From: Tsuneonella aeria
GTDB lineage: Bacteria > Pseudomonadota > Alphaproteobacteria > Sphingomonadales > Sphingomonadaceae
Assembly (NCBI RefSeq): GCF_009827495.1
Contig: NZ_WTZA01000001.1
Coordinates: forward strand, 868,001 to 932,000
Length of the DNA stretch: 64,000 nt
Direction of reading: 5' to 3'
The notes beneath the pieces are model-generated. The model saw only the letters and a program-made list of their open reading frames with translations, ran no database searches and was not told the DNA's origin. A program made the position numbers and the translations under genes. Shown here piece after piece: positions 44,556 to 46,090 of the stretch; position 1 is the first letter of the stretch; every line of letters starts with the position of its first letter.

Positions 44556-45425
44556 ATGGCCTCGCTGAAAGAACTCAAGGGCCGGATCAACTCGGTCAAG
44601 TCGACCCAGAAGATCACCAAGGCCAAGCAGATGGTCGCGGCTGCCAAGCTGCGCAAGGCGCAGGCGGCCGCCGAATCGGCGCGCCCCTATGCCGAGCGTC
44701 TGGGCGCGGTCATGGCCAGCCTGGCGACCAAGGTTTCGGGTGACGGCGCGCCCAAGCTGTTCGCCGGCACCGGCAAGGACCAGCGCCACCTGCTGGTCGT
44801 CGCCAACAGCGACAAGGGCCTCGCCGGCGCGTTCAACTCGAACATCGTCCGCGCCGCGCTCGCCAAGGCGCGCGAATTGAAGGCCGAGGGCAAGGACGTC
44901 GATTTCTACCTCGTCGGCCGCAAGGGCCGCGCACCGATCCGCCGCGCGCACCCCGGCAACATCGCGCAGATGTTCGACACCACCGACGTGCGCGAACCTG
45001 GTTATGCCGAAGCGGAACGGATCGTTACCGAGCTGACCGAGATGTACGAAGGCGGCCGGTTCGACGTGGCACACCTGTTCTTCTCGAAGTTCAAGAGCGC
45101 GCTGACCCAGGAACCGACCCGGATCCAGATCATCCCCGTCCCCGCGCCCGCCGCGGCCGCCGCCAGCCAGGCATCGGTCGAGTATGAGCCGGAAGAGGAG
45201 GAAATCCTCGCCGAGCTGCTGCCGCGCTACCTCAAGACCCAGGTGTTCGGCGCGCTGCTCGAAAACCAGGCGTCCGAACAGGGCGCCTCGATGACCGCGA
45301 TGGACAACGCCACGCGCAACGCGGGCGAGCTGATCAACAAGCTGACCATCCAGTACAACCGCAGCCGCCAGGCCGCGATCACCACCGAACTCATTGAAAT
45401 CATCGCGGGCGCGGAGGCCCTCTAA
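44556..45425 (+). CDS. atpG: ATP synthase F1 subunit gamma
   Basis: 289-aa rotor shaft. N-terminal helix ([20 protein letters not shown]) and C-terminal helix ([20 protein letters not shown] and [19 protein letters not shown]) form the coiled coil inside the alpha/beta ring. The stop TAA shares its last base with the ATG of the next gene (TAATG), so the inserted gene at 45425 is translationally coupled to it. Confidence 0.97.
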
Positions 45426-46090
45426 TGGTTTTGCGGGTCTTCCTAATTGCGTCGCTGATGATCGGCGTATCTTCGGCAAACGCTGCGGAAACGGTGCAGC
45501 ACGTGAATGTGGAGACGCCCGCGGTGGGAGAGGTCGTCACCCAGACGATTGGTTCGACGATCTATGAACATTCCAATTATTCGATTGTCACCCAGGATGT
45601 TCTAATACCTGAGGGCGAAATGACTAAGGGTTGGATCGCTTGGCGGGCGACCATTCCAGCCGGAACGAAGCTTGTTATCGTTCCTCACGACAAAGCGATC
45701 AAAGCATGTGCCCCGGGATTGGCTCACAACACAATTGGCGGCCAGTATACCGAAGCCTGCGCATACGACGATGACCGAGACGGGACTTTTGACCGGATTA
45801 ACGCTGCCGGAGGGAGCGCAGGCAAGGTTCCAAGGACCGCCTATTCTCGATCTACCCAGCAAACCAGCGTGGCCGGCAACGGATTCAAGAACGTATTGAT
45901 CTTTAACGGCTACTCCAAAGGCACCATCAAGCTCGATTATCGGGAATTTCTGAACGACCTCGCCCGGCCCGCGTTCACCCAAGAGCTTGAGTTCGACGTA
46001 TCCGAGTTGCCGACGGTTATCGCAGTAAAGTCAGTACGAATTCGCATTTTGAGTGTGTCAAACGAAGGTCTCAAGTTCGAACGCCTCTGA
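45425..46090 (+). CDS. Secreted protein of unknown function inserted in the atp operon
   Basis: 221 aa. Clear Sec signal peptide ([20 protein letters not shown], cut before AE). The mature part is predicted mostly beta strand, has two Cys (95 and 112), and a D-x-D-x-D-G calcium-loop-like sequence at 115-120 ([11 protein letters not shown]). It ends with [20 protein letters not shown] and [23 protein letters not shown] lies 7 nt before the ATG, inside the end of atpG. Its DNA is visibly richer in A/T and in rare codons (TTA/CTA, AAT, CAT) than the atp genes on either side, suggesting later acquisition. No link to ATP synthase is apparent from the protein, which is predicted periplasmic or extracellular. 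No family recognised. Confidence 0.85.

Follow-up and report, generated by a model that had tools for sequence, protein, structure and literature searches.

A phrog_1353-family gene for an exported protein at the atpG-atpD junction of Tsuneonella aeria

In the ATP synthase operon of Tsuneonella aeria, a gene for an exported protein of the phrog_1353 family (45425..46090, + strand, 221 residues) lies between atpG and atpD. Coordinates refer to the analysed stretch of 64,000 nucleotides of contig NZ_WTZA01000001.1, hereafter the window. The gene is not an orphan, and an insertion at this junction is not unique to T. aeria; it places a phage-associated family that is still uncharacterised at a chromosomal location new to it. 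It was probably captured as a lone mobile gene at a permissive site, where it would be read from the atp operon through coupling to atpG.

The start of the gene coincides with the end of its upstream neighbour. The atpG gene (44556..45425, + strand; Pfam PF00231, E = 1.8e-99), which encodes the 289-residue gamma subunit of F1 ATP synthase, ends in a TAA whose final base, at position 45425, is also the first base of the ATG of the phrog_1353-family gene (TAATG). A Shine-Dalgarno-like GGAGG (45413..45417, + strand) is located within atpG codons, 7 nt upstream of this ATG, in agreement with the initial annotation, which described both the overlap and a ribosome site inside atpG. Downstream, a 26-bp spacer (46091..46116, + strand) precedes atpD (46117..47574, + strand), which encodes the 485-residue beta subunit of F1 ATP synthase and is 94-97% identical to atpD in 10 other genomes of the genus. 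Based on the TAATG and GGAGG motifs, the gene has the layout for translational coupling to atpG, and it is plausible that the level of its product is tied to that of the gamma subunit. Within the final 24 nt of atpG, a strong Shine-Dalgarno sequence occurs in five of 37 genomes with an occupied atpG-atpD junction, including T. aeria, versus one of 100 with a short junction. No promoter-like or terminator-like site was found on the + strand in 44500-48700, and expression of the gene should therefore depend on the atp transcript.

To place this arrangement in context, atpG-atpD junctions were compared among relatives. Within the genus (11 genomes), seven genomes have a junction of 18-24 bp, three carry a lipoprotein gene of 120-128 codons and one, T. 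aeria, carries the phrog_1353-family gene; the gene is therefore not general at this site, since the other 10 genomes of the genus lack it there. A wider survey within the bacterial family read the junction in 137 of the 198 genomes with an identified atpG, taken mostly nearest first and thus leaning to close relatives. The gap is at least 120 bp in 37 of these 137 genomes and short in 100; one of the latter (L111) has a computed gap of -2402, an artefact, as its atpD lies about eight codons past atpG. The inserted ORFs were selected with a lipobox preference, but the ORF chosen is also the longest one at each of the 37 junctions. A hydrophobic N-terminus is present in 36 of them, all but a DUF4259 protein seen in a single genome (L151, G024). 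Another single genome (L122, G091) has a 286-residue protein with a hydrophobic N-terminus at this site. Strong members of one lipoprotein family account for 27 of the 37 occupants, three further occupants are weak matches that stand outside the 27 (E = 4.6e-8 to 6.9e-7), and seven, among them the T. aeria gene, do not match it. Ten occupants overlap the atpG stop codon; the overlap is a TAATG in five of them and 4 bp long in the other five. The lipoproteins (L007, L011, L012 and 24 further loci) are uncharacterised proteins of about 110-128 residues with conserved cysteines; no Pfam family was found for two members scanned. On the atpD tree, with the three weak matches counted as members, the lipoprotein family requires 16 changes relative to a shuffled mean of 27.1, and it thus appears to be partly inherited and partly gained or lost. 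These results temper two elements of the initial annotation: the conservation of the atpG-atpD junction was overstated, and the implied uniqueness of a gene at this position is not supported, as 37 of 137 genomes of the bacterial family have one. The junction is also less exceptional within the operon than it might seem. The atpA-atpG distance exceeds 80 bp in five of 37 genomes and the atpD-atpC distance is at least 120 bp in 30 of 100, which indicates that other atp junctions, atpD-atpC most of all, vary in length too and that atpG-atpD is not uniquely permissive. In four genomes (L091, L147, L186 and L187), atpD and atpC are 423-510 bp apart, a distance that could accommodate a gene. In T. 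aeria itself, a TIGR01444 FkbM-family methyltransferase gene (47657-48400; E = 3.4e-21) sits between atpD and atpC; it has a native-like GC3 of 0.843 and is missing from that place in the other 10 genomes of the genus. A literature search for inserted genes in atp operons returned nothing relevant among the matches listed.

The composition of the phrog_1353-family gene differs from that of its surroundings. Its GC content of 53.6% (67.3% for the window) is the lowest among 54 ORFs of the window, a set that was picked mechanically and probably includes some spurious ORFs. In the same set, its GC3 (0.617, versus 0.893 for atpG and 0.899 for atpD) and its codon-adaptation-like index (0.459, versus 0.861 and 0.877) each rank fourth lowest. 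The description of the gene as AT-richer, with codon use unlike both neighbours, is thus borne out, and amino-acid content does not account for the GC3 contrast. Low GC by itself is a weaker argument for transfer than it seems, because genes of this family have a lower GC content than their flanks at 54 of 54 loci, so that an AT-rich composition cannot simply be equated with recent transfer. The low GC of the T. aeria gene, 12 points under its flanks, is in part intrinsic to the family, and the contrast in GC3 carries more weight; the GC of the junction lipoprotein family is close to that of its flanks. Together with presence at the site in only one of the 11 genus genomes, these values support the proposed insertion of an exported, foreign-codon gene. 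A gene of native composition at this site throughout Sphingomonadales, which the initial annotation had set against recent insertion, is not what the junction comparison and codon use reveal.

The predicted protein has the features of an exported protein. On visual inspection, residues 1-20 (45425..45484, + strand) form a type I signal peptide with likely cleavage after ANA, in line with the signal peptide of the initial annotation, and the N-terminal 15-residue hydropathy maximum is 2.2. The D-x-D-x-D-G loop noted at the outset is also present, as D115-x-D117-x-D119-G-x-x-D123 (45767..45793, + strand). It lies near the paired cysteines Cys95 and Cys112, which are nearly invariant in an 11-sequence alignment, and the two features together suggest a structural or possibly a metal site. 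Near the C-terminus, alignments of 16 and 45 sequences define the signature YREFxxDxARPAF (residues 172-184; 45938..45976, + strand), in which Y172, E174, A180, R181, A183 and F184 are invariant in the 45 sequences. An AlphaFold model built from the 45 sequences is all beta, with a mean pLDDT of 91.8. Comparison of this model with the PDB and viral models by Foldseek gave nothing at E ≤ 0.001, the best PDB match by sequence has an E value of 0.23, and the top rows of a VIA comparison, which are class II fusion proteins, do not rise above background Z.

Assignment to a family rests on profile comparison. The protein matches phrog_1353 of the PHROGs database over nearly its full length (E = 2.3e-17, 64.5 bits; residues 8-218 against profile positions 12-220 of 230). 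It has no match in Pfam, NCBIfam or PADLOC; by the first two it is not identified as an ATP synthase subunit, and by the last nothing links the protein itself to defence. A direct sequence search returned eight proteins, its own record included, and a 16-sequence profile search returned 1346 matches at E ≤ 0.001, with no Pfam domain among the 120 listed. The label of orphan is consequently withdrawn, and a native orphan gene is ruled out by these homologues and by codon use unlike the flanks. The closest relatives (P0002-P0004) are 55-62% identical, and identity to the aligned phage and plasmid members of phrog_1353 is 18-24%. Among 54 family loci on viral and genome contigs, for which start codons were picked to favour a hydrophobic N-terminus, 51 have a hydrophobic N-terminal stretch and 24 have a lipobox by a crude pattern. 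The closest relatives have type I signal peptides by eye, and several sphingomonad members are lipoproteins. A search of the literature by family name gave no match, and no described function was found for this exported family; phrog_1353 is thus an uncharacterised exported family of phages, prophages and islands.

The positions of the relatives illustrate this distribution. One relative is in Moraxella phage Mcat28, and another is directly upstream of the tape measure gene in an Acinetobacter Vieuvirus. In Fels-2 and a Klebsiella P2-like phage, the relative lies between the replication protein (gpA) and portal genes, an interval of P2-like phages for which an anti-phage gene hotspot is reported in the part of the source consulted (PMC9122126); in the Klebsiella phage, the adjacent gene is annotated AIPR. 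The Fels-2 member is also the first named gene of the Salmonella operon STM2726-2728, which appears, in the portion of the source consulted, in an operon analysis of a mutagen response (PMC2225428). A query from an E. coli member matched 33 phage records, and a close copy of this member is present in 55 of 5426 E. coli genomes; in the three places examined, it lies in a prophage, flanked by a tail tape measure gene and a DNA circularization gene. Among sphingomonads, one copy (G027) comes right after an S24-type repressor in a prophage that also has integrase and terminase genes, one (L233) is among tail genes by eye, and one (G010) is in an island that contains an integrase, an Eco57I-type methyltransferase and a weak SIR2-like match under the cut-off; others are lone genes flanked by housekeeping genes. 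L233 and the lone genes come from a set of 11 loci, three of which did not display the family gene. On a Vibrio plasmid (L017:6018-7249), the last base of a porin-family gene is also the first base of the family gene, again a one-base overlap, which may point to an outer-membrane partner. Relatives occur in many bacteria, from Bacteroidota to Acidobacteriota. Within the bacterial family of T. aeria, 14 of 298 genomes, its own among them, carry a member. By coordinates or neighbours, none of 11 checked among the other 13 carriers (all but G179 and G272) has its copy in the atp operon. A single-sequence scan of genome contigs was uninformative. In T. aeria, the neighbours of the gene are atpG and atpD, and no phage gene, mobile gene or target duplication was seen in its immediate surroundings. 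The T. aeria gene is thus a chromosomal homologue of a phage family and not a phage gene in place.

Taken together, the full-length profile match, the relatives in phages, prophages and islands, the GC3 contrast and the presence in one of 11 genus genomes argue for capture from a phage or an island. A single phrog_1353 gene would have been inserted exactly at the atpG stop codon in the T. aeria lineage of the genus Tsuneonella. Lacking a recognisable promoter, the captured gene would be transcribed from the atp operon, and the TAATG overlap and the GGAGG in atpG codons would couple its translation to that of atpG and set its level by the gamma subunit; this read-out is proposed because of the TAATG, the GGAGG, the lack of a + strand promoter-like site and the overlap layout of other occupants. 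The product would be exported, and its all-beta domain would be located in the periplasm or on the surface. Three observations count against capture: the neighbours are atp genes only, the low GC is partly intrinsic, and several relatives are lone genes among housekeeping genes.

The last of these observations, along with the spread from Bacteroidota to Acidobacteriota and the putative structural or metal site formed by the loop and the two cysteines, also favours a general envelope or metal-binding fitness protein that was spread by transfer with no tie to phages. This explanation is possible but doubtful, given the repeated location of relatives in phages, prophages and one island. It is unlikely that the gene took over the junction slot of the small lipoprotein, and perhaps with it an envelope role proportional to ATP synthase. 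In favour of such a replacement, the lipoprotein family occupies the junction of 27 of 137 genomes, of which three belong to the genus, it is absent from the T. aeria genome at E ≤ 0.001, and both products are exported; however, the two proteins are unrelated, with no match between them, and seven genus genomes, including those nearest on the atpD tree (G006 and G009), have neither gene, which makes an empty site the likelier starting point. A neutral, decaying insertion without function would fit the foreign codon use and the restriction to one of 11 genus genomes, but is very improbable: the ORF is intact and full length, the signal peptide and signature residues are retained, and a strong Shine-Dalgarno sequence of the kind that precedes it is rare at short junctions.

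For the captured phrog_1353 gene, phage exclusion or another form of envelope protection, by a lysogenic-conversion-type envelope protein now under host expression, is tentatively suggested. It is the leading guess because of the repressor-adjacent prophage copy, the copies in a reported phage defence hotspot, the island copy and export; a general role in the envelope has a similar likelihood. More speculatively, and with low probability, the atpG-atpD junction of this bacterial family could be a recurrent expression slot for unrelated envelope genes that start at the atpG stop codon and are made in step with ATP synthase, from which T. aeria, by recruiting a phage-type exclusion protein, would have gained standing, growth-linked envelope protection. 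The T. aeria gene links a large exported family, carried by phages, prophages and islands, to a chromosomal site whose expression is easily measured and manipulated. Within one bacterial family, an operon junction of textbook conservation has repeatedly taken in foreign genes. If its occupants share an envelope role, atpG-atpD would be a natural place to seek envelope or anti-phage genes.

The T. aeria protein resembles the members of PHROG family 1353, a family of unknown function that includes Fels-2 STM2726, Moraxella phage Mcat28 AKI28238.1 and Acinetobacter phage Ab1656-2 UFJ83230.1, in its full-length profile match, export and YREFxxDxARPAF signature. In contrast to these members, which are carried by phages, its gene is in the atp operon, and it has a type I signal peptide whereas the aligned phage and plasmid members have, by eye, a lipobox cysteine. 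With the lipoprotein found at atpG-atpD in 27 of 137 genomes, the T. aeria gene shares export and site, and some lipoprotein genes likewise overlap the atpG stop codon; the sequences are unrelated, however, and the lipoprotein has a GC content near that of its flanks and is far commoner at the site. Superinfection-exclusion and lysogenic-conversion proteins of temperate phages, such as P22 SieA and Ltp (PMC3952083), are similar in that each is a single protein, exported or in the envelope, that a phage carries as cargo. The likeness to these proteins is one of kind, and the T. aeria gene differs from them in lying outside any phage and, by its layout, in being driven by a host operon.
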